Notes under the pieces: generated by a model
Databases searched by the model: none
Seen by the model: only the letters and a program-made list of their open reading frames with translations
What the model was told of the DNA's origin: nothing
Virus record (IMG/VR): IMGVR_UViG_3300022725_000147
Span: 1-26,241 of that record
Source of the DNA: a virus
Strand: one strand, 5' to 3'
DNA length: 26,241 nucleotides
Program-made: the position numbers and the translations under genes
Shown here: piece by piece, positions 1-23,489 of the stretch
Layout: each line of letters begins with the position of its first letter
Numbering within the stretch: position 1 is the first letter of the stretch

Positions 1-1
1 C

Positions 2-898
2 AGACATATTATTCATCCCATATGGTTTGCGATCCCATTATTAGCGGTTTTGATCTGGCTGTCTGTGCGTTGGGGGCTGGCACCTTTACAAACCATCGTA
101 CATGATGTCAAAAGCCGGGCACCGGATAATCTTCGGCCGATTACCTATTCGAAAACACCACGTGAAATCTTGCCATTGACGCAAGCCTTGAATAACCTTT
201 TTGTCCGCATTTCGCGCCTGTTGGATAAGGAAAGACGTTTTACAGATGATGCGGCCCATGAGTTACGCACGCCCTTGAGCGTCATAAAAACCCATGCCCA
301 ATTAATCCAGAATGCCCGCAATTACACGGAACGACAACAGGCAATCACAGGTCTGGAGGATGGGGCGGACCGGGCCATAAGACTTGTCAATCAGCTGCTT
401 GTACTTGCCCGGCTTGATAGTCAATATCAAGAGATCGGGCAGGATCTTGTCTGTTTGAATGATATAATTAAACAGACCGTTATGAATGAGACCATCCACG
501 CGATTGGTAAAAAAATTGACCTGGGTGTTTCCTTGAATGAAGAAGACCGGATCTATATTTGTGCCAACTCTGAAATGATTATGGTGCTGTTGTCGAACCT
601 GCTTTCCAATGCCCTTCGCTATACACCGGATCACGGGGAAGTCACCGTTACTCTGCGCCGACAGGGGCCGCGGGCAGAGGTTCTGATCGAAGATAGTGGC
701 CCCGGCATTGATCGGCAGGATATAGACCGTGTGTTTGAGAGGTTTTATCGGGCGACCGGGAACCGGGAAGATGGCAGCGGTCTTGGCTTGTCTATAGTGG
801 CGCGTATTGCTGAGTTATATGGAGTTGATATCCGCCTGGAAAACCGTGTTGCAGAAAAAGGGCTGAGAGCTGTTGCTGTTTTTTCTATAATGAGCTGA
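2..898 (+). CDS. Sensor histidine kinase, 3' part (5' end outside window)
   Basis: This is the C-terminal part of a membrane sensor kinase that autophosphorylates on histidine and passes phosphate to a response regulator. The reading frame is open back to the window edge, so the start is outside; a TTG at 50 is not a credible start. A TM stretch (WFAIPLLAVLIWLSV) precedes a HAMP-like linker. Then come the H-box (DAAHELRTPL), N-box (LLSNLLSNALRYTP), G1 (EDSGPGID), F-box (ERFYRA) and G2 (GSGLGLSIV). The order and the short loop fit the QseC/TctE/PmrB-type group. It is the only clear host gene in the window and lies just outside the prophage junction. The partner regulator is presumably upstream. 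Stimulus unknown. Confidence 0.93.
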   Translation, partial: RHIIHPIWFAIPLLAVLIWLSVRWGLAPLQTIVHDVKSRAPDNLRPITYSKTPREILPLTQALNNLFVRISRLLDKERRFTDDAAHELRTPLSVIKTHAQLIQNARNYTERQQAITGLEDGADRAIRLVNQLLVLARLDSQYQEIGQDLVCLNDIIKQTVMNETIHAIGKKIDLGVSLNEEDRIYICANSEMIMVLLSNLLSNALRYTPDHGEVTVTLRRQGPRAEVLIEDSGPGIDRQDIDRVFERFYRATGNREDGSGLGLSIVARIAELYGVDIRLENRVAEKGLRAVAVFSIMS

Positions 899-1012: not shown

Positions 1013-1019
1013 TAAATTC

Positions 1020-1065
1020 TGGTGCCTCCACACGGACTCGAACCGCGGACCTACTGATTACAAAT
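1020..1065 (-). other. Prophage attachment site: 3' half of tRNA-Thr(UGU)
   Basis: Read on the minus strand, this 46-bp stretch contains the 3' half of a tRNA: anticodon loop with TGT, 3' side of the anticodon stem, variable loop, T-arm with GGTTCGAGTCC, acceptor strand and encoded CCA. The identity to a tRNA ends right at the anticodon (position 1065). The DNA beyond shows no D-arm or 5' acceptor strand. A tRNA 3' half next to phage lysis genes is the classic att core duplicated by integration. The intact tRNA-Thr should be rebuilt at the other prophage end, which is not in the window. Whether to call this attL or attR depends on the integrase position. Confidence 0.88.
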
Positions 1066-1152: not shown

Positions 1153-1803
1153 TTATGACTTGAAAAGCCCCTTCATAGTCTCCATAAACCCACCCACCGA
1201 CCCGGTGATATCACCCACAGTAACCCCGTCCTTGTGACCAACGGCCTTGCCGACTTCTCGCATGCCCATATAGGTCATGATTACGCCTGCGGCCCAGCCG
1301 ATCATGTTGGTGTATAGGTCGTTGAGGACACCATCCAAAGAAATCAGCGCGATTTGATTGGGGAGGGCTGCAAATGCAGCGTTCAAAGTATTGTAGAGAG
1401 CCAGCATTAAATTGACGGCCACCGTCGCCAAAGGTGGAAAAACCACGGCCACAACCATCCAGCGGACTGCCCATGGCCGGGTGGTCATGCGCATGACGGC
1501 TATATCACCACGTTGACGTTCCGGGATTGCGTTGAGGGTTGTAGCATCCACCTGCCCGCCCTGTTGTGCAAGACGCTGTGTGATTGCCTGGTATTCTTCA
1601 ATCTCGACTTTCATCCGATCAATGAAAGCCTGTTGCTTGTCTGCGGGTAGGTTTTCTACCTCACTACGCAGTTGGTCCGTGTCTGTAGCCGCCGACGGCG
1701 TGCCGGCGACTTCCTCCACGACTTTTTTACCGACATCGAACAATTCAGTTGCGCTTGAGATAGCGGAGAATATTGCGGGGAGGGCTGCAAGAAAAGCGAC
1801 CAT
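1153..1803 (-). CDS. Holin, 3TM (GTA-type) family
   Basis: This 216-residue protein is probably the holin that permeabilises the inner membrane at the end of the lytic cycle and lets the endolysin reach the wall. It has a hydrophobic N-terminus (AALPAIFSAISSA), a charged helical region (about 40-105) and two strong membrane segments near residues 111-137 and 160-182. The arrangement and the RPWAVRWMVV entry into the first strong segment fit the 3TM holin family (PF11351-like), common in alphaproteobacterial phages and gene transfer agents. An AGGAGG lies 5 nt before the ATG and overlaps the end of the upstream endolysin gene. It is the last prophage gene before the att site. Confidence 0.8.
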   Translation of the reverse strand: MVAFLAALPAIFSAISSATELFDVGKKVVEEVAGTPSAATDTDQLRSEVENLPADKQQAFIDRMKVEIEEYQAITQRLAQQGGQVDATTLNAIPERQRGDIAVMRMTTRPWAVRWMVVAVVFPPLATVAVNLMLALYNTLNAAFAALPNQIALISLDGVLNDLYTNMIGWAAGVIMTYMGMREVGKAVGHKDGVTVGDITGSVGGFMETMKGLFKS

Positions 1804-1812
1804 GTCAGCCTC

Positions 1813-2217
1813 CTATTCCACATCGTTATAGAAATGGTGTTTCCCGATTGTCACGCATGGGGTTTTGCCTTCAGCCCAGGGCGTAGACCAACCATCAACG
1901 TGATAATGGGTAGCCCCTTGCACAAGATCAGCATAACGCCCGGCCATAACGCCCGCTGCGATATGCAAGCAGCGCAGGAACTGACGAGACTTTTCCGTTA
2001 AGGCAAGCAGCTTTTCCCGATTGGGGTCTTTTTTATTCCAACAGGAAAATTGCCAAGCCTTTTGGCACACGGATTTGATGTCGTGGCCCCACCATTTGGG
2101 TTTCTTGGTCCGGTTCAGGATGACCTGCGCAACTGCTATCACGCCTTCATCAGGTTCTCCGCGTGCCTCGCCGTACAGGGTACGCGCGAGGGTGTCCAAA
2201 TGTTCAAGTTGGTTCAT
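1813..2217 (-). CDS. Endolysin, SleB-like cell wall hydrolase
   Basis: This 134-residue peptidoglycan hydrolase belongs to the SleB/Hydrolase_2 type (PF07486). The family signature is clear: LARTLYGEARGE near the N-terminus with the presumed catalytic glutamate, VAQVILNR, then a Trp-rich middle (PKWWG, WQFSCW) and the C-terminal ATHYH motif followed by WSTPWA. There is no signal peptide, so release through the holin encoded just downstream (9 nt apart) is expected. AAGGAG lies 7 nt before the ATG. Together with the 3TM holin and the small membrane-anchored coiled-coil protein upstream it forms the lysis cassette. Confidence 0.9.
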   Translation of the reverse strand: MNQLEHLDTLARTLYGEARGEPDEGVIAVAQVILNRTKKPKWWGHDIKSVCQKAWQFSCWNKKDPNREKLLALTEKSRQFLRCLHIAAGVMAGRYADLVQGATHYHVDGWSTPWAEGKTPCVTIGKHHFYNDVE

Positions 2218-2232: not shown

Positions 2233-2544
2233 CTACGCGACGATTTCGCGGTTGTGTGTTTCGTCAAGCTTCTTTTCGATGCGCACAAGGTGGCCGGTTA
2301 GCCGTCGCTCAACATCTTTCAGGTATTCGATCGAGGCGTAATTTTTGGCAACCTCCAACTTATAGGCGGACAATTCTTCCTTAAGACGATCCACCCGAAG
2401 GCCGTTCGCGGTTGTCGCAGCTTCGTTGCCTTCCCGGACAGCCTTAATTTGCCCGTTAAAGTAAACCCACAGCACCCAGAAAAGGGGGAAAATGATGATA
2501 GTCAAGGCCCATGCAAGGCCTGCGTTCAGTGTTACGTCCGCCAC
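2233..2544 (-). CDS. Small membrane-anchored coiled-coil lysis-region protein
   Basis: This 103-residue protein has one N-terminal membrane segment (about residues 10-29, rich in Ile, Phe and Trp) followed by a long charged helix with heptad character to the C-terminus. The start is GTG: AAAGGAG lies 6 nt before it, and the overlapping ATG one frame away gives only MWRT and a stop. Topology and place, directly upstream of the endolysin, suit a lysis accessory such as an inner-membrane spanin subunit or an antiholin. No partner outer spanin was recognised and the length is short for Rz, so the function is an inference. Confidence 0.7.
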   Translation of the reverse strand: MADVTLNAGLAWALTIIIFPLFWVLWVYFNGQIKAVREGNEAATTANGLRVDRLKEELSAYKLEVAKNYASIEYLKDVERRLTGHLVRIEKKLDETHNREIVA

Positions 2545-2555
2545 ATTTATCTCCT

Positions 2556-2924
2556 TTATGAAATCGTCAATCCTGCCGGTTGCACGGCTTTGAGGTCTTC
2601 CGGCGTTTGTGCGGTTTCAATGGCCGGATCGGCCGGGGCATCACGCAACGCCTGTTTTTGTGCGGCAAGGGACGTCTGCAAGGGGGTGTTGCCGTCTTCA
2701 AGCGCCTTCATGAATTCTGCATCAAGTTTTTCCAGTTTCGACTTGCGGGCCGTACGGATTTTATCGCGCCAGATTTCGCGCGCCTTGGTCATGTCCACGT
2801 CAATAACGTCCTGCCCGTCAAGCTGCCACGCATCACGGAAGGTGCGATCTTGTGGTGTGGTGGCCGCTGTTGCATCGGCAGTGCCTTGCGGTGTGAAGAT
2901 ATAGCTTTGCGGTTTCGGTGCCAT
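2556..2924 (-). CDS. Phage tail-fibre assembly-like protein
   Basis: The 122-residue product contains a pattern I associate with phage tail-region small proteins: DRTFRDAWQLDG, then VDMTKAREIWRDKIRTARK, a LEKLDAEFMKALEDGNT segment and QKQALRDAPADPAI. The last part resembles tail-fibre assembly chaperones (Phage_tail_APC-like). The start is the ATG at 2924, because AAAGGAGGT lies directly upstream of it and the ATG overlaps the previous stop as TAATG. An in-frame ATG 24 nt upstream would have no such site. The protein is expected to act as a chaperone or capping protein during fibre assembly rather than as a virion component. Confidence 0.7.
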   Translation of the reverse strand: MAPKPQSYIFTPQGTADATAATTPQDRTFRDAWQLDGQDVIDVDMTKAREIWRDKIRTARKSKLEKLDAEFMKALEDGNTPLQTSLAAQKQALRDAPADPAIETAQTPEDLKAVQPAGLTIS

Positions 2925-3439
2925 TATGCGACCTCCTTTAGTGCCCAAGCGTTGCGGAATTCGCGGCTCTGAGGCAGTTGCGTTTTACGACAAATTACGA
3001 ATTTAGGGCGGTTGCCTTGACTGCCCTGCCAAACATGTGCGGGCACATCTTTTTGAATGAGATATTCAATAGCTTCTTCCTCACTCATCGGCCCGATAAG
3101 GGGCGTATCGTGGAGAATACGCCCGTTGATAATCCGACCATTATCATCGGTTTCCAGCCGGTGATAGACTTCCACAGGTGGCAGGATACCGCCGTGTAGG
3201 GCGCAGGCCATCCAGTTGGGGTCTGGTACCAAGATAGACGCCGGGCTGTCTATATTAGCTTCAAACACCACACGATAATCAGACTGGACGGGTGGTAAAA
3301 CACGGGCATAACTAAGCCGCTCATGGAGCTTAAGTTTAGGAAAATCGGAGAATGACACAAATCCATAGCGTTTGCGGATTTGCACTGGCAATTTCCATAC
3401 AAGGCGCTTCCACAGCGGGAGTTTTTGCAAGTCTGTCAT
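2924..3439 (-). CDS. Phage tail-region protein of unknown function
   Basis: This 171-residue protein has no domain I recognise. The start is taken at 3439, where ATGA overlaps the previous stop; an upstream in-frame ATG would run into the preceding gene. It is translationally coupled on both sides. The middle contains DPNWMACALHGGILPP and SEEEAIEYLIQKDVPAHVW. The extreme C-terminus, REFRNAWALKEVA, resembles the DRTFRDAWQLDG start of the conserved part of the next protein, as if one ancestral protein was split or partly duplicated at this junction. A role in the fibre or its assembly is inferred from position only. Confidence 0.7.
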   Translation of the reverse strand: MTDLQKLPLWKRLVWKLPVQIRKRYGFVSFSDFPKLKLHERLSYARVLPPVQSDYRVVFEANIDSPASILVPDPNWMACALHGGILPPVEVYHRLETDDNGRIINGRILHDTPLIGPMSEEEAIEYLIQKDVPAHVWQGSQGNRPKFVICRKTQLPQSREFRNAWALKEVA

Positions 3440-3828
3440 GCCAAGCCCCCCATTACGTGACAAAAGCAAGGGTTAGTGTCTCTCAGGCCCCCGTCATAAA
3501 TCTGCGCCCTGAATGAAGATGCTGTCTGACCTGACAGGTCTCCCTCGGCATTACCAACATTAAAAACTTCCCCGGGCGCTGTGCTATCCAGCCCTGCTGT
3601 GCCAACAGGGGCATTTTCATTACTCACGAACACGTTTGTGTAGGACAACGTAAAGTCCCCTACACCGTTGTCTGTGACAGAGCTGAAATTAAACGAACCT
3701 TCTAAAGCACCGCCGCTGTTCGGTAGGAACCGCGCCCAAGCCTTCGCAGACCCCTGCACGATCCCTTCTGTAGAAAGCTCTTTAGTGCCGTCCAGTGTTT
3801 GGAGGCCTGCTGTAACTACTTTACTCAT
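3436..3828 (-). CDS. Small tail-fibre tip-like protein, paralogue A
   Basis: This 130-residue protein has the pattern AKAWARF followed by SFNFSSVTDNGVGDFTLSYT. Phage fibre-region proteins often carry an AKAW...SYNVSSITDNGTGDYTVNF-type domain, predicted to be a beta-rich distal fibre or receptor-contact module. The next gene upstream carries the same domain in diverged form (VKPWVNM, YGVSSTLDQGTGRYDINW), so the two look like tandem paralogues. Start and stop both sit in ATGA overlaps with neighbours. There are two cysteines near the end (CFCH). It is probably a structural protein at the fibre end; host attachment is an inference. Confidence 0.7.
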   Translation of the reverse strand: MSKVVTAGLQTLDGTKELSTEGIVQGSAKAWARFLPNSGGALEGSFNFSSVTDNGVGDFTLSYTNVFVSNENAPVGTAGLDSTAPGEVFNVGNAEGDLSGQTASSFRAQIYDGGLRDTNPCFCHVMGGLA

Positions 3829-4214
3829 GCCAAATCTCCCCGTGTCAGAACACTAATCTCGCCACTGTCATACTTGGCACCATTATCTGAGCGTACAGAT
3901 AGGTTGAGCATAGACGCAGTCTTGGGTGTGCCTGTGCTTTCAGGATCACCCACCATCAATGTACAGGTATAGGCAGTTCCGCCGCTGGATGAACCAACGG
4001 CTGCATAATCGCTTGAGGCAAACATTGTAGACCAGTTAATGTCATAACGCCCTGTTCCTTGATCCAGCGTGGATGACACACCGTAGCTCGCAAGAACACT
4101 TGCGTTATTACCGTTCATATTAACCCACGGCTTTACTTTGTCGTAACCGGGCAACTCAACAGGAGAACCATCGGCCTTCTCTACACGATCAACGTGAAGA
4201 ATACTCTCGACCAT
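3825..4214 (-). CDS. Small tail-fibre tip-like protein, paralogue B
   Basis: This 129-residue protein has the same domain as its downstream neighbour: VKPWVNM, then SYGVSSTLDQGTGRYDINW. The ATG at 4214 is chosen because GGAGGG precedes it and it overlaps the fibre gene stop as TAATG. The N-terminal 25 residues (SILHVDRVEKADGSPVELPG) differ from paralogue A and may anchor it to the fibre. The gene end overlaps the next start by 4 nt. Two adjacent, diverged copies suggest heteromeric fibre tips or exchangeable receptor-binding modules. Confidence 0.7.
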   Translation of the reverse strand: MVESILHVDRVEKADGSPVELPGYDKVKPWVNMNGNNASVLASYGVSSTLDQGTGRYDINWSTMFASSDYAAVGSSSGGTAYTCTLMVGDPESTGTPKTASMLNLSVRSDNGAKYDSGEISVLTRGDLA

Positions 4215-5281
4215 TATCCGACCCTCCATGTACATCCGGGTTTAACAGTTACAGTGAACCCGCTTTCAATTGTGATAGGCCCGGCGGCATTGACGTTTAC
4301 AGCTTTGTAGATCGTGTGGGCGCCTGTGCCTGCATCCGCGATATCAATGGCAGAACCGCCGAATGTGGTAGATAGTTGCAGGGTTGCCGCAGCAGCGTTG
4401 ACTACGCGGTAGGGCGTTTCAACCGCAAGGCCAGCAGGCAGCGTCCCGTCTGTTTCCAGATAGACGATATCGCCGTTTTTGAACTTTTCGTCTGTACCTA
4501 CAGACAGAGTGTCCGCACCTGCATCCACCGTGAATGTATTGTTCAGGTCCCACAGCGTGGTGTCGGTACCGATATAGGGATCATTGATACGTTGGCCTGT
4601 GTCACCGATGCCGGGGCCGCCCCCCTGAACGCCGGTAAGCTGAGAGCCATCCCCATTGGGAGCTAAAACGTCAGTACCGATTTTTACCCCGAGGTTTTCC
4701 CGGGAAAGCGCTTTATCTGGCAAATCCGATAAGTTATTCCCTGCCAACAGTTTTGCGGCCAATGCAGCAACAAGGCCACTCACATCATCAATCTCATGCC
4801 CATGTCCCGCCTGCGCCTCTTGAATGACTTGCTGAAAATCAAAAAACAGCGTCAGGTTCCCTGTGACCAGATCATCGTCAAAAACCCCGGCTACATGGGT
4901 ATTATTGATAACGTACCAGTTCTTATCAAGCGCTCCGCCCTCGTTGTTTTGAACAAGCTCGGTTGCGTAATAAGCTGTACCCGTCACCCATGCTCCACGA
5001 TTGCGCCCCGTCACAGGAATAATACCGGTTGTCACATCTCCGGCACCGAGCCCGGACACTTCACCTATGACCGGCATGTCAATATAGGCGGGGGTTACAA
5101 CCTTCCCTTCACTATCCAGCTTCTGCGGGTTTTCAAGCAATTCCGAACCAGTCGGGCCAGCATACAAAGTCGCCAACGTTGACGTTTTCTTTCCCTCGCT
5201 ATCGATCGTGTAGAAGGCAAGGGTTTTACCAACATACATAGGGTTTGCGAGAGTAAAGTCCTGAATGGCAATGCGGGTCAT
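4214..5281 (-). CDS. Tail fibre protein
   Basis: This 355-residue protein is the best candidate for the main fibre or host-recognition protein. It has an N-terminal domain (1-110), then a GHGHEIDDVSGL turn, a NNLSDLPDKALSRENLGV segment typical of fibre shafts, a Gly-rich linker (TGVQGGGPGIGDTG), and a beta-rich C-terminus ending in a short repeat-like strand region. It is short for a podovirus fibre or tailspike. TTG and ATG are adjacent at 5284 and 5281; the ATG, 8 nt after GGAG, is preferred. It follows the gp4-like adaptor by 3 nt and is coupled to the small tip-like proteins downstream. Confidence 0.75.
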   Translation of the reverse strand: MTRIAIQDFTLANPMYVGKTLAFYTIDSEGKKTSTLATLYAGPTGSELLENPQKLDSEGKVVTPAYIDMPVIGEVSGLGAGDVTTGIIPVTGRNRGAWVTGTAYYATELVQNNEGGALDKNWYVINNTHVAGVFDDDLVTGNLTLFFDFQQVIQEAQAGHGHEIDDVSGLVAALAAKLLAGNNLSDLPDKALSRENLGVKIGTDVLAPNGDGSQLTGVQGGGPGIGDTGQRINDPYIGTDTTLWDLNNTFTVDAGADTLSVGTDEKFKNGDIVYLETDGTLPAGLAVETPYRVVNAAAATLQLSTTFGGSAIDIADAGTGAHTIYKAVNVNAAGPITIESGFTVTVKPGCTWRVG

Positions 5282-5284
5282 CAA

Positions 5285-5986
5285 TTATACTCCGTCATAA
5301 TACGGGGTGATGGGATTGGCCGTTTCAAAAGAGCGGTCAAATGCTTGCAGCTTGAACAAGGTGACATCAGCCAGTTTGCCAAATCGATCAACCTCACGAA
5401 GAGGTAGGCGACGCACCGGACCATCCCCAATTTCAGCGGCCAAGGCATAGATTGCCCAGCGTTGCCAACTGGGGCGCAGGCCTGTTTGGGAATTTGAGTT
5501 GCCATAAAAGGTTGAGGAGAACTTCTGAAATGTGAGCTCAAAAGTAACGTTGTCGTCACCGGGCGTCGGCCACACTTTCAATACAGGGTCAGAACTACGG
5601 TCGATATAGGCATACTGCGGGCCACCTCCGGCAGCAGTATCAAGCGCATCAAAGCGCGCTTTAGACAAAAGCTTGACCTCTTGGCGCGAACTTCCTGTTT
5701 CTGCATAGGCAGAAAGGGGGAAGGCCATGCCATCATTGGGCCAGTCAGCCCCTGCAACTGTTTTCAGATTATAGACCTGCGTATCCGCCGAAAGAGCAAA
5801 CGACACCTTATCCTCAACAAGAAAGTTGATGTACTCCGTACCGGCCAGCTCGCTCATAATCAGGTCCAGCCAGTGAAGACCTTCTTCCAGTTCAATGGTA
5901 TCGGCGGCAGTGTCATTGATGGAGAGGCTGCCAATTTTACGCAGCGCTCTTTCCACAATCTCTTTGGCGGATAGCGAAATCGGCAT
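5285..5986 (-). CDS. P22 gp4-like head-tail adaptor (tail accessory factor)
   Basis: This 233-residue protein resembles the P22 tail accessory factor gp4, which binds under the portal ring, closes the DNA-filled head and offers the site for the tail. Supporting features are the N-terminal helical pattern KEIVERALRKIG with TIELEEGLHWLDLIMSEL, the central VLKVWPTPGDDNVTFELTF strand typical of adaptor proteins, and RPSWQRWAIYALAAEI followed by a C-terminal helix. The P22-like portal in the same cassette supports the call. AAGGTG lies 7 nt before the ATG. In P22 the nozzle gene gp10 and needle gene gp26 follow; here the fibre gene follows at once. Confidence 0.8.
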   Translation of the reverse strand: MPISLSAKEIVERALRKIGSLSINDTAADTIELEEGLHWLDLIMSELAGTEYINFLVEDKVSFALSADTQVYNLKTVAGADWPNDGMAFPLSAYAETGSSRQEVKLLSKARFDALDTAAGGGPQYAYIDRSSDPVLKVWPTPGDDNVTFELTFQKFSSTFYGNSNSQTGLRPSWQRWAIYALAAEIGDGPVRRLPLREVDRFGKLADVTLFKLQAFDRSFETANPITPYYDGV

Positions 5987-5997: not shown

Positions 5998-6597
5998 TTA
6001 ATCTAAAATACCGTCCATTTCGTCGGCATCCATTTCAAGTTCAAGGTCGTCCTCAGAAACAGCACCCGGAACCGGAATCCCGTACTTGTCGCGCAGGAAA
6101 TTGATCGCGTCTTCACGTTCCGCATCTTCGCCCAGGTTTTCACTGCCGGCGTACTGGCAACAACGGGCAAACAAAGCATCGGTGGTCAGTTCTCCAAGAC
6201 GGGCAACGACCTGACCGGTTTCCAGCTTGATGTTGTCACCGATTTTGGTGGTATCAGCCTTGGAGGTTGTGGGAACCAGCACTGTCAGTTCAGCGTCTTC
6301 ATAAATGTTGAATTCGCGAATGTGCAGGAAACGACGGGCATGGCCGGACGGCATTTTTGTCGCTTCACCGTATTTAAATTTGTACGTAAAAATACGCCCG
6401 TTCCCCACCTGCACCTCATGCTCACGCACATTGTGCGGCGCATTGGGGGCACAAGTGGTGTCAACGACATACAGAGCCGTGTCCGTTTCCTTTTTCACGT
6501 CCTGCTTTTGCGGCTTGGCGGCGGGTTTCTTGGCTTGGGGTTTCGGTGCGGCCTTTGCCGGCGCTTGCGGCTTGGCGACGGAGGGTTGTTCAGACAT
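5998..6597 (-). CDS. Capsid-adjacent structural protein of unknown function
   Basis: The 199-residue product starts with a disordered Pro/Ala/Lys-rich tail of about 40 residues and continues into a folded part (NVREHEVQVGNGRIFTYKFK, SGHARRFLHIREFNIY), ending with an acidic tail (EDDLELEMDADEMDGILD). AGGAG lies 7 nt before the ATG at 6597; an upstream in-frame ATG lies inside the terminator region and is not used. Position between the major capsid protein and the head-tail adaptor, behind a terminator, suggests a head completion or decoration protein made in lower amounts than capsid. I do not recognise a named family. Confidence 0.75.
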   Translation of the reverse strand: MSEQPSVAKPQAPAKAAPKPQAKKPAAKPQKQDVKKETDTALYVVDTTCAPNAPHNVREHEVQVGNGRIFTYKFKYGEATKMPSGHARRFLHIREFNIYEDAELTVLVPTTSKADTTKIGDNIKLETGQVVARLGELTTDALFARCCQYAGSENLGEDAEREDAINFLRDKYGIPVPGAVSEDDLELEMDADEMDGILD

Positions 6598-6625
6598 GAG
6601 AAAAACTCCTGATGGGAAAAGAAGC

Positions 6626-6657
6626 AAAAGGACGAGTACCGAAGTACCCGTCCTTTT
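6626..6657 (-). terminator. UUCG-tetraloop terminator after the major capsid gene
   Basis: On the minus strand a 14-bp stem, AAAAGGACGGGTAC with GTACTCGTCCTTTT, is closed by the extra-stable C(UUCG)G loop and has only one G-U wobble. It ends in TTTT and continues into a T-rich stretch. It lies 20 nt after the capsid stop codon and 29 nt before the next start. It should cut transcription or protect the capsid mRNA 3' end, so that capsid is made in excess over the adaptor and fibre. Confidence 0.8.
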
Positions 6658-6677
6658 AGGTGTGAGAAGGATGCGGC

Positions 6678-7793
6678 TTAAGTTTCGGCAGCCGCGGTTT
6701 TCAGGGAAACAACACCGAAATCTTCAACGGAGTTGTCATCCGGAATGGATTTGAATTGCGGCTTCAGCATGCCGACCATACGGCCATAGGCGATGCCATT
6801 CTTGTTGCCGTAGTCTGTACTGTCGGACTCATCTACAGACTGTTCACCAATTGTGGCAATGGCACCGGCTTGCGCACCGAGCAACATTGCTTGCGCGCCA
6901 TGAATGGTCCCGGTCGAGCCCCAGCGAGAACCAGAGTCCAGCCCCAGTGTGTTGAAGGTTTTATTGTGTTCATAAAGAATCACACCATCAACAACGGCCA
7001 AGGCCCCCTTGAAGATCGGGTTTTGATCACCGCGAACACCGGCATTTTGCAGAGCCGATTTGTAATCGCTGTCCTGTTTGAGGTCGCGCGCTTGCTCAGT
7101 CGTCAGCAAGCCCAGGAAGTACTCCTTACCTTTGGAGCGGATCGGGCGCACTTTTTTACGTTTGGCAAATGCGCATGCCCGTACAATCAGGTTCCAGGAC
7201 ATTTTGTCCGAAGCCGTCAATGTCGCTTCCGAAGTGGCCGTGCCGGCATACAGCACACGATTGGCCGAGGATGTCGATACATCAGCCGCAAAGCTGAGGT
7301 TGGGCAAGTCGGAACCGACCCGCGTCGTCCCATCGGTTTTGAGCGAGTAAGCCCGACCGGCAATGGTCAGGAACATCAGTTCATCGATCTTGTCGCCAAG
7401 CCAAAATTTTAACTTACCGGTTGCCATGGCCCGGAAGCGAATGACGTTTTTCTGTTCTGAGACACGGCCTTTTGACTTCACTGCATTACGTAGTTGGTCC
7501 GTCTGGATATCAATATCTTCATTGGAAAGCGCTTCTTCATTACCTTCCAAAGTGCCATCACCAGCGATACCGTCGCCTTGCAGATCAGCAACCAGTTGCA
7601 TGACGCACTGGTCGCCACGTTCGGTTTTAGTCAGTTCCGTCACACGGTGGAACGGAGAATTCATGTCTTTCTCATTTTTCCCGATCATATTGTTCGAGAA
7701 CAGGAAAGACGCATCGCGCCCTGCGGCCCAGATTTGATTAGCCCAGAGCTTCTTGCGCGCACCGGACAGTGCGCCGAAATCGGTTTCAGCCAT
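6678..7793 (-). CDS. Major capsid protein, N4-gp56 / DUF4043 family
   Basis: This 371-residue shell protein matches the N4-gp56 family pattern (PF13252-like). It starts FGALSGARKKLWANQIW and continues with SPFHRVTELTKTERGDQCVM, then GDGTLEGNEEALSNEDIDI and RNAVKSKGRVSEQKNVIRFR, which is the most conserved stretch of the family. The C-terminus includes LLGAQAGAIATIG and a product-specific end. The ATG at 7793 is chosen for its GGGAGAG site; the longer open frame upstream is only an out-of-frame reading of the scaffold gene. It is preceded by the scaffold-like gene by 16 nt and followed by a strong hairpin terminator. Confidence 0.9.
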   Translation of the reverse strand: MAETDFGALSGARKKLWANQIWAAGRDASFLFSNNMIGKNEKDMNSPFHRVTELTKTERGDQCVMQLVADLQGDGIAGDGTLEGNEEALSNEDIDIQTDQLRNAVKSKGRVSEQKNVIRFRAMATGKLKFWLGDKIDELMFLTIAGRAYSLKTDGTTRVGSDLPNLSFAADVSTSSANRVLYAGTATSEATLTASDKMSWNLIVRACAFAKRKKVRPIRSKGKEYFLGLLTTEQARDLKQDSDYKSALQNAGVRGDQNPIFKGALAVVDGVILYEHNKTFNTLGLDSGSRWGSTGTIHGAQAMLLGAQAGAIATIGEQSVDESDSTDYGNKNGIAYGRMVGMLKPQFKSIPDDNSVEDFGVVSLKTAAAET

Positions 7794-7809: not shown

Positions 7810-8946
7810 CTATTCGATAATGCCCTCCATGGCCTTGTTGCGAACAGATTCCGGCAGTGCATCAAACTCTTCCTCAGAAAGCTCAGAGAGCTTTTCCAAG
7901 GAAAGGTCGTGACTGCTGCCGCTGTCGGCCATGGTGTTGATTGAAGCCGGTTGGCGCTTGGCGAGTTCCAGTTTTCGGGCTCGCTCTTTTGCCTCCGGTG
8001 AAGGACCTTTGTTTTCAGGCTTAGTGGCCGGGGCGGTGTCTGCCGCCGCTTGATAGTTCGGCACGAGGAATTGAACATTTTCCTCAATCATCTGGACCTG
8101 CAATTGACGATAACGCAACGTCCCCAGAGGGGTGTTGTACTTAAGCCCTTCAGCGTCAAGCTGCTGTCGGGCCTTGCCGTTCACAAAAGACCATTCCGGC
8201 GAGTTTTCAGGCAGCCCCAGTTGCTGGAGCGCTTGGGTCGCCTGACTGCCTTGGATTAATTCATTTGTCCTTTCCTGAAGATACAGGTCGTCAGATTGAA
8301 TGTTGGTTTGTTCCTGTGCCTTTTTCGGATGGGTCGGCGTTTCCAGTTCCCGAATACGAGTTTCGATAGCGCGTTCTTTGCGACGGGCTTCGCCGGCGGT
8401 AAGATCACCATCATCCACCTTGTCCCAAATGCTATCGATCTCGGTATTCAGTTTTGAAATTTCGTCCTGAGGGGTGGGCGCTTTCTGCTCGGGCCGTTCG
8501 GTCTGTTCAGTGGTGGAGGCTGAAAGTTTGCCGTTAAGTTCGGCGATTTTCAATTCCAACTGACGTGCCCGTTCGGCTTCTTGCTTACGTGCCTGATTCA
8601 CCTCATCAAAGCGAGATTTCGGAATACGCACATCGTCTTTACCCTCGGGTTCATCCTCGGCATTGGGCTGTTCTGCCTCCTGCTCTTGATCCCCGACCAG
8701 CTCGTTGACCTTTTCTTCAGCTTCCGCATTTTCATCCACCGGGTCCTGGAAGTTATCAGCTTCCTCGGCCTTGACTTCTTTCATTGCTTCCGCCAATGCA
8801 ACTGCATCCGGGTCATCCTGATCGATTTCCGGCAATTCAGCTTCTGTGTTGCCGCCGGTGCCATTGTCTTCAGAAGGCTGACCATCTGCATTCGTGTCTT
8901 CGTGTTGGTCGTTTTCGAAAGTGCCGTTCTGTGCTTGTGTACCCAT
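7810..8946 (-). CDS. Scaffolding-like acidic protein
   Basis: This 378-residue protein has a very acidic, low-complexity N-terminus (about 1-105), then a helical, charged region with heptads (RKQEAERARQLELKIAELNGK; IDSIWDKVDDGDLTAGEARRKE) and a C-terminal acidic helix (LEKLSELSEEEFDALPESV). This composition and the place directly upstream of the major capsid gene are typical of capsid assembly scaffolds, which bind capsid protein and leave the head before packaging. GAGG lies 8 nt before the ATG. It is longer than many scaffolds; the acidic N-terminus could have an extra role. Confidence 0.75.
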   Translation of the reverse strand: MGTQAQNGTFENDQHEDTNADGQPSEDNGTGGNTEAELPEIDQDDPDAVALAEAMKEVKAEEADNFQDPVDENAEAEEKVNELVGDQEQEAEQPNAEDEPEGKDDVRIPKSRFDEVNQARKQEAERARQLELKIAELNGKLSASTTEQTERPEQKAPTPQDEISKLNTEIDSIWDKVDDGDLTAGEARRKERAIETRIRELETPTHPKKAQEQTNIQSDDLYLQERTNELIQGSQATQALQQLGLPENSPEWSFVNGKARQQLDAEGLKYNTPLGTLRYRQLQVQMIEENVQFLVPNYQAAADTAPATKPENKGPSPEAKERARKLELAKRQPASINTMADSGSSHDLSLEKLSELSEEEFDALPESVRNKAMEGIIE

Positions 8947-9536: not shown

Positions 9537-10058
9537 TTACATGATAGACGAGGGCCGCTCGCCCATCGCCCGTTTGAATTTCTCCTGAGGACGGGCATCA
9601 ATGGACCTGTCCAGTTCCTGCCAGGCTTGCCAGGCCAGTTCGCATTGCTCCAGCCACACATCGGGACCGGCGCTCATAACACCTGCAATGCTGTCTTCAA
9701 TTTCAACAGGGATATGGATATCCCCGTCTTCGTCCATCCACAGGAAGACGAACTTGCGATACTCGGCCTCAAAGACCTGAATATTGCTGTCATCCGCGTG
9801 GGGGTTAAGCATGACGCATACCCATGCCCCGTCGTGATGCAAATGATCATTCAGGACACGCAGCATATCGAACACAAATGTCTTGCAGAAGGCGTCCGGC
9901 TTCGGCGTGATCGTGGGATAGAAATCCATTTCCTGTCCCGCTCCTGTAACCGCCGCGCCATACCACTGCGATTTGTTGCCGCTGCGCTCGGCCTCATAAT
10001 CCATACGCAAGAATGTGGCCTTGGAGTTTAAAAAATTATCGTCAAGCTTGTGTCCCAT
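9537..10058 (-). CDS. Portal-adjacent phage protein of unknown function
   Basis: The 173-residue product follows the portal gene by 9 nt, with AAGGGA 5 nt before its ATG. It is mixed alpha/beta and acidic, rich in aromatic residues (YRKFVFLWMDEDGDIHIPV; WLEQCELAWQAWQEL). I do not recognise the family. Position in the head cassette, between portal and scaffold, and expression with them suggest a head or connector accessory. It has no membrane segment or signal peptide. Confidence 0.7.
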   Translation of the reverse strand: MGHKLDDNFLNSKATFLRMDYEAERSGNKSQWYGAAVTGAGQEMDFYPTITPKPDAFCKTFVFDMLRVLNDHLHHDGAWVCVMLNPHADDSNIQVFEAEYRKFVFLWMDEDGDIHIPVEIEDSIAGVMSAGPDVWLEQCELAWQAWQELDRSIDARPQEKFKRAMGERPSSIM

Positions 10059-10067: not shown

Positions 10068-12026
10068 TTATTCTGCTGCCGGTAAGGCAGGCGGTTGCGG
10101 CTGTGGGGCGCTTCCTTCCGGCATGGGGACATTGCCAGATCCCATTGCCGTTGAGTTCTCCAGCTTGTCGATGCCAAGCACAGTCCGAATGCGACGCTTC
10201 ACATCTTCCTTGCGGGGCATTGAGGACATATCGATCCAGATATCTGCGAGCGCACTCGCACCTTGTCCCATAGCCGGAGCGAACTTCTCAAAGAACTGGC
10301 TGAACTCTTGGAACTGGGCTTCCTGGAACGTCGCTGACATTGGCGTTTCATCAACCTTGACCAGATACTTGCCCACAGTTACATCGTTGAACTTCTGCAT
10401 AACACCATCATCGCCCAGACGACGGCCATTGATGATTTTCTCAACAATTCTCCCGTCTTCACCTTCGATGCGGAAGATACGTTTCTCGTCGTAATACTTC
10501 TGGACAATCCCCAAAATGGAGCGGCCTTGAAGTTCTTTTGTGCGTTTCCAATTGGTTTGGTACATCTGCAAGCCAACAACGGCCTGCTGTTGGCGCGCCA
10601 GAATGGCTTTGCCCGATTGCACCTTGTCGATATTGCCCAAAGCGCTTTCGTTGATACCGGCGGTACGGCGCACATTCTCGTAGCCTTTCTGTTCCAGCTT
10701 CTCCATGGCTTGAGGAGCCGGGCCGGTACCAATCTCTTTGACGGTATCCCTTTTTCCTTCTTTGGTCTTGATCTGAATGCCCGGTGTTGAGCCAAGCTGC
10801 TTGAAACGTTCTTCCTGCTTGTCGTCAAAGGTCCCGTCTTCATAAACCCAGCCACCTTTCGCTTGGCGGCCGACAATTTCAATTTCCAGATTTCGGCGTT
10901 TGTTGATCTCATCCTGCGGATCAATCAGATCGTCCACCATGCCTTTGGTGACGCCACGACGGAAATAAGGGAAATAACCCTTGATCGTAAATCCATCGTA
11001 CAAACTCCAATCATCGTGGACGATTACATCCCCGGCCAATACAGTCCAACGAACGCGCTTGCACATCATGCGTTGCACTTTCAATGGGTTGCCGCCCCGT
11101 CCAGCCCATTGGAGCACTTTCTGGACGCGGTTTTCATCCCAATGGTCAGGGATAACCGCCTTGTCTCCTGTCTCCAGATCAATAAAGCACGGCTTGACCT
11201 CGCGCACCCAATACTGGGTATCAAGCACTCTTACGGTCTTGCGCGAGGTGTCATACAGGTGCTCGAAGAACGTGGACCGGAAGGACTGGAAATCATCCAT
11301 TCCGTTTTCATCAAGTTGTTGGCCAAAGTTGCGGATGGGGGTGACTTCTTCCTCACCCGAACTCGCTGAAATAGGAAAACCGTTCCAGATATCGCCTTTC
11401 GTAAACCCTTCCAGCAAGTCCTTGGCTTTACCGCCATAGGTCGCCTCAATTTCATCCAAACTCACCCATCGGGTTTGTTGAATGCGCGGATGGTCATCAA
11501 GGTTATATTCTGAACTATCCGGATCCAGATACACGGTGAATGGGTCCACAGCCTTTAACGCAGCATCGCCGAGCAGGTTCTTTTCAAAGTCCAGCTTTGC
11601 TTCCTGATATCCGCGCCCGGTCAGCAGTCCATCCAGATAGGTTTCGGTATCCACGTATGTCAGGTGATTGACCGTAGCAATATGCTTCACCACATTACTG
11701 AGGAGTTCTGCCAAGTCCTCAGTGGACATGGAGTCATTACCCGGCAAGAAGGACAAATCGGTTTTATTGTTCTGGAAATAACCGATCACCAGCCGGACCA
11801 GAGGACCAATTTCGTTGAAGCTAAGCGACGGCAACCCCTTGGCTGCCCGTTTGGCAATCTCGTCCGCCGTCCACTGCCGCCCCTCGAAGTAATCCACACA
11901 TTTTTTTGCCGGTTCCGCCCAGACCCGGTGCGCCGTTGCAGCACGCTCAAACTGATCCACAAGCTTCATCACCTTCTCGGCGTCCTGCTTGGGCAGTTTG
12001 TCAGGCGCGGTGTGTCCAAAAATCAT
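10068..12026 (-). CDS. Portal protein, P22-like
   Basis: This 652-residue protein forms the dodecameric ring at one head vertex through which DNA enters and leaves. The P22-type portal pattern is clear: an N-terminal helical start, FEGRQWTADEIAKRAAKGLP, SLSFNEIGPLVRLVIGYFQNN, a GYQEAKLDFE strand, DPFTVYLDPDSSEYNLDD, DLIDPQDEINKRRNLEIEIV, and the stem/wing region with IDKVQSGKAILARQQQ. The P22 protein is about 725 residues; this one lacks most of the long C-terminal barrel, which is common in relatives, and ends in a Pro/Gln-rich tail. It follows terL by 12 nt. The site before its ATG is weak. Confidence 0.92.
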   Translation of the reverse strand: MIFGHTAPDKLPKQDAEKVMKLVDQFERAATAHRVWAEPAKKCVDYFEGRQWTADEIAKRAAKGLPSLSFNEIGPLVRLVIGYFQNNKTDLSFLPGNDSMSTEDLAELLSNVVKHIATVNHLTYVDTETYLDGLLTGRGYQEAKLDFEKNLLGDAALKAVDPFTVYLDPDSSEYNLDDHPRIQQTRWVSLDEIEATYGGKAKDLLEGFTKGDIWNGFPISASSGEEEVTPIRNFGQQLDENGMDDFQSFRSTFFEHLYDTSRKTVRVLDTQYWVREVKPCFIDLETGDKAVIPDHWDENRVQKVLQWAGRGGNPLKVQRMMCKRVRWTVLAGDVIVHDDWSLYDGFTIKGYFPYFRRGVTKGMVDDLIDPQDEINKRRNLEIEIVGRQAKGGWVYEDGTFDDKQEERFKQLGSTPGIQIKTKEGKRDTVKEIGTGPAPQAMEKLEQKGYENVRRTAGINESALGNIDKVQSGKAILARQQQAVVGLQMYQTNWKRTKELQGRSILGIVQKYYDEKRIFRIEGEDGRIVEKIINGRRLGDDGVMQKFNDVTVGKYLVKVDETPMSATFQEAQFQEFSQFFEKFAPAMGQGASALADIWIDMSSMPRKEDVKRRIRTVLGIDKLENSTAMGSGNVPMPEGSAPQPQPPALPAAE

Positions 12027-12038: not shown

Positions 12039-13715
12039 TTACCAGGCTGTTCTGTGGTCCATATCCTCCGGCTTGGAAGTTGCTTCCTTCCGTGCCGGCC
12101 AATCAATTACGAAATCGTCATCAATGAAGCGCGCCAAACCATCCAGACTGTCGTCGTGGTTACAGACAGGAAAGGCCGTGTACTCTTCTTCGATAAACTG
12201 TTTGGTGCTGTTCACCGCTGCGCCATCGGAATGGCGGTTGTGAATGTCATTTTGCAGCAACAGGATATCCCCGCGCTCAAACCATGGTACGAGGCGCAGG
12301 ATCCGATTAACCTTGCTCATGCCTCCGCCAAGAGGTGTGATTTCAAAGCTGTAGTTGCGCCGATCCATCTCCGATTTGATATGCTCGATATCGGCCTGCA
12401 TGCCGTAATCCTCATATCCCACCCGAAAGATTGAATTCACATCCGACCACTTGCGGTGCAGATCAAACAGGCATTTGGTCCGGGTCGGCAGGTTCATGCG
12501 TTCCCGAATATGTTCGAGCTGGCGCACCTTGCGATCTGCCCCAAACCCCAACACCCAAATGGCTGTATAGTCATTGTCACTGCGCGATTTCTCTTTGCCC
12601 GATGCCGGATCAACGATAATTCCGATATTCAGGCCGTCGTATGTCTCTGGCGTCCAGTAGCGCAGCCAATCTTCATCAAATCCCATAGACGTATCTGCCG
12701 TCGGGTTTTGAAGCATCTGCGCCCCGAAAATGTAGGGTCCCTGCGCCTGACGTTTTTTCTGTAACGTGCTTGGGAACTTTAGTGTGCAGTTCTCTTTAAC
12801 AAAGTTCTCAGTGCCATCCTTCGTACACAAGTGGACCCGAGTAATGGCCGCCCCGCGCTTGATGATATCCGAATAGGTATCGAATAGGTGATAGCGCGTT
12901 CCTGCGTAACGTTTATTGCCACCTTCGGTTCCGAGGTTGTCCGATAACTCCCATTGACTGGTCGTTTTCTTGATCTGGTCCGGTGTGTTGACACTCTCCA
13001 CCGTGACCACATCGTCATAGAGCAACGTCCAAAAATGTCGCCCGGTCGGCTGTCCATCAACCAAGCCCCAAGCCTCTACCGTTGCCTCTTTCGGGTTAGA
13101 CTGTCGCTTGACCGTAATCCCGTTATCCAACGACCAGCCTTTACGCGGTGGCCGGGACCAGAGAATGTCCGGAAACAAATCCTTCAGGCGTTTGTTTTCT
13201 TCAAGTTCCTGCTTAATCTGTTGCAGAAACGCTTTGGCAATCCCCCGCGTGTGGGAGAAAATACCGATTGTGACTTCCCTGCCGTGATATCGCGGTGCTG
13301 GCTTTTCCCCATGACTGGCGAGAATATCCTGAATGGTCAGAGCAAAAGTGATGATCGTCGATTTGTAATGCTCGCGGCTCCACAGGTCCAAATACCCATT
13401 CGGAAAGGCTTGCACTTCCCGGCACCGGCGGAAAAGCCACGGATGCAAGATATCGGTGCGCCCCAATCCCCAGAACATCAGGAAGAATAGATCGTTTCGG
13501 CACAGCCACCGGCGCGCGTCGCTGAGGCGTTTTCCTTCCGTCCCTTCTTCCTCGTCCCTCTTCTCAGCCCGACGCAGCAACGCTTTCCAGAAATTCTTCG
13601 TCTCGCGCAGTTTCAGCGGCAAGCCATCCGGTAAAAGCCCGCGATTATCCTCTGACGGTTCCGGCGGGTTATTCGGATAATGTCTTTTCGCGCTCTTTCG
13701 CTTCGTTGACTGCAT
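12039..13715 (-). CDS. terL: Terminase large subunit
   Basis: This 558-residue packaging motor has an N-terminal ATPase and a C-terminal RNase H-like nuclease. A Walker A variant is at 113-120 (SREHYKST), which replaces the usual Gly-rich loop as in several podovirus terminases. Walker B is around 231-236 (LLYDDV). The nuclease domain begins near 364 with IGIIVDPASG, its first acidic residue being Asp369, followed by DNDYTAIWVLGF. The gene start overlaps terS by 47 nt, and the site before the ATG is weak, so expression may depend on coupling. A downstream start cannot be excluded but the next ATG would remove conserved sequence. Confidence 0.92.
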   Translation of the reverse strand: MQSTKRKSAKRHYPNNPPEPSEDNRGLLPDGLPLKLRETKNFWKALLRRAEKRDEEEGTEGKRLSDARRWLCRNDLFFLMFWGLGRTDILHPWLFRRCREVQAFPNGYLDLWSREHYKSTIITFALTIQDILASHGEKPAPRYHGREVTIGIFSHTRGIAKAFLQQIKQELEENKRLKDLFPDILWSRPPRKGWSLDNGITVKRQSNPKEATVEAWGLVDGQPTGRHFWTLLYDDVVTVESVNTPDQIKKTTSQWELSDNLGTEGGNKRYAGTRYHLFDTYSDIIKRGAAITRVHLCTKDGTENFVKENCTLKFPSTLQKKRQAQGPYIFGAQMLQNPTADTSMGFDEDWLRYWTPETYDGLNIGIIVDPASGKEKSRSDNDYTAIWVLGFGADRKVRQLEHIRERMNLPTRTKCLFDLHRKWSDVNSIFRVGYEDYGMQADIEHIKSEMDRRNYSFEITPLGGGMSKVNRILRLVPWFERGDILLLQNDIHNRHSDGAAVNSTKQFIEEEYTAFPVCNHDDSLDGLARFIDDDFVIDWPARKEATSKPEDMDHRTAW

Positions 13716-14304
13716 CTACAACCATATCTTCAATCTCGTCCGCCGCAGATTGGTTATCCGCGCCCGCATCGCCCGCACTCGGTTCTTCTACCCGTTTGAT
13801 TTGTGTCCATGACCCGGCCAACCGTGCCACGGCCATAGATTCATCACGCGCAACTTTGTCGTAATCGACCACCTTGGCCTTAATGCCATTGTCAGGATCA
13901 TCACTATCCTCTGCCGGCTCACTGACCTGCGTAACTTCGACGTCGTTCAGCTCCCGGCATTTAGTCGCCAGCAAACTCTTGGCTGCATGGTTGCGCAGAA
14001 GAATTTCCACCACCTCAGACACATCCTTGCTTTGCAGCATTTCAAGTTCGATGCGTTGCTGTTGAACGCTCTTGTACTTGCTGCGTGGACTGCCTGGTGT
14101 GGCCCGGTTTACATTCCCTTTTGGTGCCCCTGAGCCCTTACCGCCATGCATGCGGCATGTGTCTGCCCCTCTTACAGCCGGGTTGTTACACTGCTTGCGC
14201 GATCGCTTTGACAGCGATTGACAGCGCGGTGTGCCTGCAAACTTCCCAGTTGCGATATGGGATTCAAACGTTTCTTTTGGCTGTTTTTCAGGTTGCTCAG
14301 ACAC
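13669..14304 (-). CDS. terS: Probable terminase small subunit
   Basis: This 211-residue protein has the N-terminal signature CQSLSKRSRKQCNNPAV followed by CRMHGGKGSGAPKGNVNR. The Cys-rich HGGKGSGAPKGN stretch is seen in many phage proteins directly upstream of terL and treated as DNA-recognition small terminases. The rest is helical and acidic, with ELEMLQSKDVSEVVEILLR and an acidic C-terminus able to contact TerL. It is the first gene of the late cluster, placed just after two terminators, and has no clear promoter or strong ribosome site of its own. Confidence 0.78.
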   Translation of the reverse strand: MSEQPEKQPKETFESHIATGKFAGTPRCQSLSKRSRKQCNNPAVRGADTCRMHGGKGSGAPKGNVNRATPGSPRSKYKSVQQQRIELEMLQSKDVSEVVEILLRNHAAKSLLATKCRELNDVEVTQVSEPAEDSDDPDNGIKAKVVDYDKVARDESMAVARLAGSWTQIKRVEEPSAGDAGADNQSAADEIEDMVVDAVNEAKEREKTLSE

Positions 14305-16140: not shown

Positions 16141-16142
16141 AA

Positions 16143-16304
16143 TCACAGTTTCCTTTCCAGTTCAGGTAAATGCTTAAGCACACATTCCCCCATCATCCGT
16201 TTGTACGGTTTGAAATCTTCCTTTGTGACCGGCTCTCCGCAGGCCTCGGCAACAAGCAGGGCGACGGCACGTTCAAGGAGCGCGATACGTTCGGCGGGGG
16301 TCAT
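16143..16304 (-). CDS. Small phage protein, 53 residues
   Basis: This short gene encodes MTPAERIALLERAVALLVAE followed by a Cys-containing middle and the end HLPELERKL. GGAGA lies about 7 nt before the ATG at 16304 and overlaps the end of the upstream gene (TAG), and the stop TGA runs directly into the start region of the next gene. Tight packing on both sides supports it as real. It is a predicted two-helix peptide, function unknown. It is easily missed because of its size. Confidence 0.7.
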   Translation of the reverse strand: MTPAERIALLERAVALLVAEACGEPVTKEDFKPYKRMMGECVLKHLPELERKL

Positions 16305-16306
16305 AG

Positions 16307-16468
16307 CTACGTCTCCTTTCTTTCAAATTCAGCGGTTTGAATCTTTAGGGTCGCTATTTCATCAGGAAGATCCCTGGCCTCCTCAAGGCGACGTTCGGCA
16401 TCTTGGAGCTGATGCTTGAGCAACCTTAATTTTGCTCGTCGGCCGATGTCGGCACTTTTGCTGGTCAT
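16307..16468 (-). CDS. Small coiled-coil phage protein, 53 residues
   Basis: The product (start MTSKSADIGRRAKLRLL) is one long charged helix with heptad spacing. The ATG at 16468 overlaps the stop of the upstream gene as ATGA, with GAGGGGG just ahead; a longer frame has no site. The gene ends 2 nt before the start of the next small gene. It may be a regulator-binding or structural peptide. No family recognised. Confidence 0.65.
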   Translation of the reverse strand: MTSKSADIGRRAKLRLLKHQLQDAERRLEEARDLPDEIATLKIQTAEFERKET

Positions 16469-17001
16469 AGCTCGGCCCCCTCTCCACAATGTGGGCAAGC
16501 TTCCTGTAGGGGCGCTTGGGCAGGCTCTGGGCCATTACACCCCTCTCCGCCACATTCGCCCGTCGTGGAGCACCCACAACACTCAGGAACGGTTTGCGTG
16601 GTCTGGATCCAACCTTCTCCGTTGCAAGTCGCACAAAGGCGATGTAACGGGTTCACTACTTTTTCGGCCTTTTCCAATAAATCAGGGACATTTGCCTCAC
16701 GACCGATAAACGGAATGAGTTCCTTGATGAGCGCACGCAATTGAGCATTTGCGCGCCTCTTCATTGCGAGTTCTTCGCGAAACTCGTCAGCAACACGCAT
16801 TGCTCTCGCGCCAACGTTCAACATTTTCTCCCGGCGTTTTGACTGGTTCTCCAAATGATCCAGCAGAGCCAACATCTCCATCGGCGTGACATGAACTGCA
16901 AAATCTGACGAACTAACCAGCTTACCCGGGCTCGCAAGGGCAGCCTCTCGGTACAAGCGATCTTGCTCTACAGCAACTTCCCGCAATTGTTTCAAATCCA
17001 T
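16465..17001 (-). CDS. Ead/Ea22-like protein with Cys-rich zinc-binding tail
   Basis: This roughly 178-residue protein has an N-terminal helical region, with SSSDFAVHVTPMEMLALLDHLE and a DEFREELAMKRRANAQLRALI stretch, of the general kind of phage Ead/Ea22 early proteins. Its C-terminal third is Cys-rich: CATCNGEGW, CCGCSTTGECGGEGCNG and CPHCGEG. The spacing recalls DnaJ-type CxxCxGxG zinc fingers. AGGAGG precedes paired ATGs at 17004 and 17001; the second has the better spacing. A small hairpin (GGGTCA/TGACCC, 17013-17025) sits directly before the site and could modulate translation. Function unknown, probably a metal-binding early regulator. Confidence 0.65.
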   Translation of the reverse strand: MDLKQLREVAVEQDRLYREAALASPGKLVSSSDFAVHVTPMEMLALLDHLENQSKRREKMLNVGARAMRVADEFREELAMKRRANAQLRALIKELIPFIGREANVPDLLEKAEKVVNPLHRLCATCNGEGWIQTTQTVPECCGCSTTGECGGEGCNGPEPAQAPLQEACPHCGEGAEL

Positions 17002-17073
17002 CATTCCTCCTCGGGTCAGTGACCCTTCAAAAATCTTCCCTCGTTGTGCAAGGGGTTAAAATGGTTAATTTCC

Positions 17074-17286
17074 TTAAGCCACTCGGGCCAGTTTGGTTGG
17101 CAACTGCTCCCTATGGCACTCGCCAGCTTCCTTTTCCTTCTGAATCCAAGCGTACAGGCGGGCTTGACCGGCTTTATCCAAATGATTGTGAAACGCGCAA
17201 CGAGCTGCGGTGTAGGCACCAGGTTCCCAAGTATCGGAATTGACAATCACCTTACGGGCTTCGTTGAGCGCTTCTTCCACTGTCAT
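17074..17286 (-). CDS. Small phage protein, 70 residues
   Basis: The 70-residue product (MTVEEALNEARKVIVNSD start) is helical with an AARCAFHNHLDKAGQARLYAWI segment. The ATG overlaps the stop of the upstream gene as ATGA, which supports translation by coupling. It has no membrane segment. No family recognised. It lies between a putative replication-associated gene and the Cys-rich gene. Confidence 0.6.
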   Translation of the reverse strand: MTVEEALNEARKVIVNSDTWEPGAYTAARCAFHNHLDKAGQARLYAWIQKEKEAGECHREQLPTKLARVA

Positions 17287-20677: not shown

Positions 20678-20688
20678 GAAGCTACCCC

Positions 20689-21459: not shown

Positions 21460-21517
21460 TTTCATTCCTTTCAAAAAGCACCAGGGATGCAGAGCAGAGC
21501 CCCGGCAGTTGTGTCCC

Positions 21518-22138: not shown

Positions 22139-22139
22139 G

Positions 22140-22618: not shown

Positions 22619-22621
22619 GGT

Positions 22622-23480: not shown

Positions 23481-23489
23481 AATGAACGA

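Follow-up and report, generated by a model that had tools for sequence, protein, structure and literature searches.

A prophage with P22-like head genes and no detected nozzle or ejection genes, probably a mosaic of two podophage types

Organization of the record and prophage ends

The window analyzed here is the whole of IMG/VR record IMGVR_UViG_3300022725_000147, a single metagenomic sequence of 26,241 bp. Its left 0.9 kb is host DNA, and the prophage runs rightward from there: a minus-strand late operon (terS, terL, portal, scaffold, MCP, adaptor, fibres, endolysin, holin), followed by a replication/immunity region. The left boundary is marked by the following features.

1..898, plus strand: 3' part of a host gene for a QseC-like sensor histidine kinase, an open ORF cut by the left end of the record
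1015..1065, minus strand: 3' half of a tRNA-Thr(TGT)-like gene, recognized by visual inspection

Homologues of the kinase in 385 sampled genomes of Alphaproteobacteria, the class of the Rhodospirillaceae relative, were only 32-40% identical. The tRNA-Thr(TGT)-like half at 1015..1065 was interpreted as the displaced attachment-site end of the prophage. It received no score from ARAGORN or Rfam, neither of which scores half tRNAs, and a terminator-like hairpin lies beside it at 987-1013. No integrase was recognized among the predicted ORFs of the window and the right end of the record stops in or beside an ORF, so the prophage continues past position 26,241.

Head, packaging and adaptor genes

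13669..14304, minus strand: terminase small subunit (by position and 33% to L026)
12039..13715, minus strand: terminase large subunit (phrog_38, E 7e-44)
10068..12026, minus strand: portal protein (phrog_156, E 1.3e-99)
9537..10058, minus strand: conserved protein between portal and scaffold, o9537 (family HMM, E 2.4e-51)
7810..8946, minus strand: scaffold-like protein (position and family HMM, E 2.1e-61; putative function)
6681..7793, minus strand: major capsid protein, MCP (phrog_334)
6625..6680, minus strand: DECO position, which holds a decoration-like gene of ~235 aa in relatives and only a terminator-like hairpin in the window
5998..6597, minus strand: conserved head-region protein, o5998 (HMM, E 9.8e-38; same place in relatives)
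5285..5986, minus strand: head-to-tail adaptor of the gp4/SU10-adaptor class (PF24175, family HMM and fold search)

The window carries its own capsid, portal, terminase and connector genes. A preliminary description of this DNA had proposed a P22-type head, and the portal and MCP matches (phrog_156 and phrog_334) bear this out: a P22-type portal and coat occur with an adaptor in conserved order, as in P22-like podophages. MCP identity was 51-61% to the close clade and about 40% to phiR18/AP1. ORF 9125-9661 and several early ORFs had no match in the libraries searched.

The same description placed a gp4-like adaptor directly before a fibre, which was also confirmed. The product of 5285-5986 scored 27.4 bits against PF24175 (SU10_adaptor; cut-off 27) and matched the family HMM at E 3.7e-70. 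In a fold search with a predicted model of modest quality (mean pLDDT only 67.7), it matched adaptor/neck proteins of SU10, N4, GP4, KHP30 and others at E values down to 1e-6. The ATG of the first fibre gene, at 5281, lies 3 nt past the adaptor stop.

One head-region gene of the relatives is absent. The DECO position amounts to 83 nt in the window, and a strong terminator-like hairpin (6625-6658, minus strand) stands directly after the MCP gene, exactly where relatives hold DECO. An HMM search of all six frames of the window gave no DECO match. DECO was present in every close relative with coverage there and had no match in the more distant relatives (MCP about 40%). Because the window groups with L026 and L031 in the MCP tree (support 93/79), both of which bear DECO, its absence looks like a loss.

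Fibre cassette and lysis genes

4214..5281, minus strand: fibre 1, with an N-terminal ~150 aa that is the family's anchor domain and a C-terminal part that differs
3825..4214, minus strand: short tail-fibre protein 2 (phrog_11355)
3436..3828, minus strand: short tail-fibre protein 3 (phrog_11355)
2924..3442, minus strand: fibre-cassette protein o2924 (58% to HMO-2011 gp36, 44% to Mel-JY33)
2556..2924, minus strand: tail-fibre assembly chaperone-like protein o2556 (phrog_20196; 53% to HMO-2011 gp35; PF16778 at E 0.003, below the cut-off)
2545..2555, no strand: junction of fibre chaperone and lysis cassette, where relatives would carry tailspike, nozzle and ejection genes (about 10-20 kb)
2233..2544, minus strand: membrane/coiled-coil protein of the lysis cassette (phrog_29007; 46% over 43 aa to the G416 gene at the same position)
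1813..2217, minus strand: endolysin, a cell wall hydrolase (PF07486, E 1.4e-20; 82% identical to G416)
1153..1803, minus strand: holin-like membrane protein, the last gene of the late operon (76% to G416; from gene order and apparent membrane helices seen by eye)

Residues 4-151 of fibre 1 were 45% identical to the fibre of the P22-like relative L040. After fibre 1, the cassette was nearest to HMO-2011 (58% and 53%) and then to Mel-JY33 (44-45%), whereas identity to L040, a relative in its head genes, was only 24% for o2924 and 34% for o2556. HMO-2011 and the cyanopodophage Mel-JY33 share with the window short fibres followed by o2924 and o2556 homologues in the same order; unlike the window, their genomes keep their remaining late genes. 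In Mel-JY33 the cassette stands toward the end of the late region, after a giant gene of ~12 kb annotated 'lysin'. In the window, o2556 and the lysis cassette are separated by 11 nt, and no direct repeats of note were found at the 2545-2555 junction.

Search for nozzle, tailspike and ejection genes

Nozzle, tailspike, needle and ejection genes were sought with PHROGs, Pfam and HMMs of the relatives, and none was detected in the 26,241-bp record, in agreement with the preliminary description, which had reported no nozzle, needle or ejection proteins. A nozzle HMM run on all six frames of the window reached a best E of 1.4; the same six-frame search recovered adaptor, MCP, scaffold, o9537 and o5998 at E 1e-38 to 1e-170. 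A nozzle hidden inside a window ORF was ruled out by this search. The tailspike HMM touched only fibre 1 (E 0.002), and the two proteins share an N-terminal domain type in relatives. With the ORFs of a set of the relatives as queries, tblastn found no homologue of their ejection genes in the window. Thus two features of P22-like podophages, a gp10-like nozzle (phrog_578) and ejection proteins encoded after it, are absent from the record, beyond which the right end of the prophage lies.

Position of the tail block in P22-like relatives

MCP scans gave more than 60 related loci. The clade consists of P22-like podophages and prophages of 59-64 kb, mostly from metagenomes and Alphaproteobacteria (L002, L040/G001, G040 and the Falsiroseomonas prophage G018), with the Pseudomonas phages KPP25/phiR18 (Kochitakasuvirus) and Acidovorax phage AP1 as more distant kin. 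Scans with single proteins found no close relatives of the adaptor or portal in viral contigs and none of the portal in genomes. From terL through portal, scaffold, MCP and adaptor to the first fibre, the window has the gene order of the clade; it differs in having neither the gene after MCP nor the tailspike, the nozzle (phrog_578, Hc3) or any ejection gene, and its lysis and early regions stem from another lineage.

In nearly all relatives with coverage, the order was portal, o9537, scaffold, MCP, DECO, o5998, adaptor and fibre, and the fibre that follows the adaptor has the N-terminus of the window fibre. MCP-DECO-o5998-adaptor-fibre is retained in about 60 relatives, with tailspike and nozzle also present wherever the locus is long enough. 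The adaptor-fibre junction, which had been flagged as the anomalous place, is therefore normal for the P22-like clade. Its 3-nt spacing was rightly read as intact, since it is the ancestral arrangement, and a deletion at this junction was ruled out by the same adjacency. Comparison of gene order with relatives, which had been suggested as a check, did reveal nozzle and ejection genes, but these are placed after the fibres and a pectate-lyase-like tailspike in phages and prophages of roughly 60 kb, not between adaptor and fibre. From this gene order, the missing block would belong downstream of the fibres, at about 2545-2555 of the window.

The best architectural match to the window was L040 (G001, 59.3 kb), with the order adaptor, fibre 1, three short fibres, o2924, o2556, tailspike, nozzle and ejection proteins (370, 528, 1392 and 2286 aa) and an unassigned holin-like gene downstream. 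Its o2556 homologue reads open across contig ends. The window is collinear with L040 through o2556 and then passes straight into the lysis cassette. Both prophage ends were visible in G040, a complete chromosomal prophage which lies within a 3.74-Mb contig in the orientation of the window: tRNA-Ser, lysis-like, ejection (925, 531 and 294 aa) and, further on, nozzle (confirmed separately), tailspike, fibre, adaptor, o5998, DECO, MCP, and so on to terL, early genes and an integrase-like gene. The late genes follow this order in the Falsiroseomonas prophage as well, up to a 4075-aa gene that borders host DNA. The family nozzle belongs to phrog_578 (head closure Hc3, gp10 class), and among solved structures it is closest to PDB 9vyg 'Stabilization protein' (9vyg_M) and 7eeq 'Needle head proteins' (7eeq_1).

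Several other arrangements were seen in this family. Single genes of 3841 and 4075 aa end the ejection module at L099 7273-18798 and L104 1741-13968; the counterpart region of L040 is two frames of 1392 and 2286 aa, the former with matches to endolysin, DarB-like and methyltransferase families. A protein encoded after the nozzle in L040 (L092 4014-4883) has proline-rich surroundings around a Hint-like (intein/hedgehog-type) motif, CYATGTPIVMEDGTIKPV. In L009 (4792-11448), the fibre-tailspike-nozzle segment is inverted relative to the head genes and flanked by weak inverted repeats only; this may reflect a tail segment capable of inversion or an error of assembly.

No family member free of a nozzle was seen except where the contig is cut. 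L026/G002 was considered as a nozzle-free sibling and rejected, as its contig ends inside a fibre gene. These observations speak against a naturally minimal tail, another suggestion of the preliminary description. In such a tail, unrecognised small proteins of the window would replace the nozzle and ejection proteins. The ORFs lacking library matches leave some room for such proteins, but the genes after the fibres can be assigned to the fibre cassette or to lysis, with homologues at such positions elsewhere; no gene stands out as a possible replacement, and none of those left over resembles the family's ejection proteins (about 220 to >4,000 aa). We consider a minimal tail very unlikely.

A T7-like prophage shares the backbone of the window

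When the holin was used as query, a single close relative emerged: G416 (IMGVR_UViG_3300006467_001878, 31.5 kb), a T7-like temperate prophage. The lysis regions were 73% identical in DNA over 1 kb, with endolysin and holin 82% and 76% identical in amino acids. After the holin, G416 shows the same arrangement as the window, including a tRNA-Thr-like half. This half, read by eye at ~30,700-30,750 of the G416 record (L150), suggests that G416 too is inserted in a tRNA-Thr gene, but of another isoacceptor (anticodon GGT versus TGT in the window); the lysis-to-tRNA layout is alike. The similarity resumes on the other side of the head genes.

16142..24304, no strand: early/immunity backbone, partly common with G416 (small and early ORFs, cro-like gene, repressor)

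Within this region, identities to the early proteins of G416 were modest overall, at 81% for ORF 16143-16304 and 60% for ORF 17283-18011. The latter matched only G416 in viral contigs and nothing in the 385 genomes. An 86% DNA match to G416 extends over 177 bp beside the cro-like gene, and the cro-like gene (23259-23480) and repressor (23519-24304) have more distant counterparts there. Two overlapping small genes lie beside the repressor at 24457-25327 (plus strand); they are toxin-antitoxin-like, and the second has an HTH_3 domain (phrog_5119).

Thus the lysis cassette, tRNA-Thr attachment layout, repressor/cro region and several early genes are common to G416 and the window. The structural genes are not: the head, portal, adaptor, nozzle and ejection genes of G416 are T7-like and complete, whereas the head of the window is P22-like. 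The G416 module comprises a connector (phrog_332), MCP (phrog_212), an adaptor-like 202-aa gene, a nozzle (phrog_376) and an internal virion protein (phrog_418). Further ejection genes come next, then fibres, lysis genes and the tRNA-Thr-like half, which places the nozzle and ejection genes before the fibres.

This comparison bears on two other explanations for the missing block. The nozzle and ejection genes might be present beyond the right end of the record, as the prophage continues there and no integrase was recognized. However, G040 and G018 place their tail genes within the late operon, between the fibres and the operon end, and the repressor-to-integrase side of G040 has no nozzle or ejection genes. 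All structural genes of G416 are found between its early and lysis modules, and the late operon of the window runs uninterrupted into the attachment site. Tail genes beyond the right end are made less likely by the G416-like backbone on both sides of the P22-like block, and we regard this explanation as unlikely.

Mis-joining of a metagenomic contig might also produce such a structure, and both the single record and the two absences (DECO and tail block) would be in keeping with it. However, two mis-joins would be needed, because G416-like backbone genes lie to either side of the P22-like block. Moreover, the junctions show no change in G+C and no break in reading frames or translational overlaps. 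We judge an assembly artefact distinctly unlikely.

Integrity of the remaining genes and comparison with satellites

The late cluster had been described as gap-free, and its remaining frames were indeed all intact and tightly packed. Departures from otherwise invariant positions numbered 1 of 71 in terL, 4 of 73 in the portal and 3 of 62 in MCP; the portal and MCP values fall inside the range of the clade, near its upper limit. Neither the frames nor the invariant residues of these three proteins showed decay.

Intact head, packaging, adaptor, fibre and lysis genes, all conserved, would be expected of a helper-dependent, capsid-forming podoviral satellite that fills its own P22-like heads and takes nozzle and ejection proteins from a related podophage, resident or infecting. 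There are precedents in the capsid-forming PICIs and in MulchRoom and MiniFlayer, satellites of Streptomyces that encode capsid and adaptor but no tail, MiniFlayer having a tail fibre in addition (PMC10690885). Like these elements, the window has its own capsid, portal, terminase and adaptor and no tail genes, and it shares the presence of a fibre with MiniFlayer. However, they are recurrent, experimentally shown satellites, whereas the window is one sequence; recurrence as a conserved element, as in capsid-forming PICIs, was not observed, and no sibling with its nozzle-free layout was found among the 80+ family loci. The window is also set apart from these satellites by its own lysis cassette, repressor and P22-like podoviral head. 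No satellite-type helper-sensing genes were recognised, and G416, to which its backbone is related, encodes structural and lysis proteins of its own. A satellite is in our view an improbable explanation.

A probable mosaic origin

Modules of different lineages are joined within the window, and an essential structural block is absent where intact relatives (L040/G001, G040) carry it. We consider it probable that the window represents a mosaic temperate phage that arose by a crossover in the fibre region and is most likely unable to infect alone. This reading builds on three observations: how the genes are ordered in each parent type, the lack of the tail block, and the common backbone on both sides of the swapped segment.

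The crossover would have taken place between a P22-like and a T7-like podophage, at an exact point presumed to lie in the tail-fibre region. The P22-like parent would have contributed the front half, from terminase to adaptor, with the anchor of fibre 1; the T7-like parent would have contributed the rear half, with short fibres, chaperone, endolysin, holin and the attachment site of a smaller backbone. Because the P22-like family has its nozzle set after the fibres and the T7-like backbone has its own before them, the product would inherit neither. Given the roles of nozzle and ejection proteins in podophages, such an element would be expected to package DNA into heads but not to close the heads, retain the DNA or deliver it unaided, and would be defective unless complemented.

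Some observations stand against a mosaic origin. No near-identical parent or sibling was found, and the crossover was not seen directly. The second absence, that of DECO, is not explained by a crossover in the fibres. Against a defective mosaic, a long-dead prophage would not show such intact late genes. The intact late frames and the retention of invariant residues suggest that the exchange was recent or that the head genes are still used. The deleted prophage offered by the preliminary description holds insofar as loss of a block is favoured, but the event would have been an exchange of modules and not a crude deletion, and its place one fibre cassette further downstream.

The window is thus most likely a hybrid and not a new kind of tail. 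Where two podophage layouts differ in whether the nozzle comes before or after the fibres, a single exchange in the fibre region would be enough to give an element with a head only. Such an element may be a dead end, or it may be raw material for the evolution of a capsid-forming satellite.
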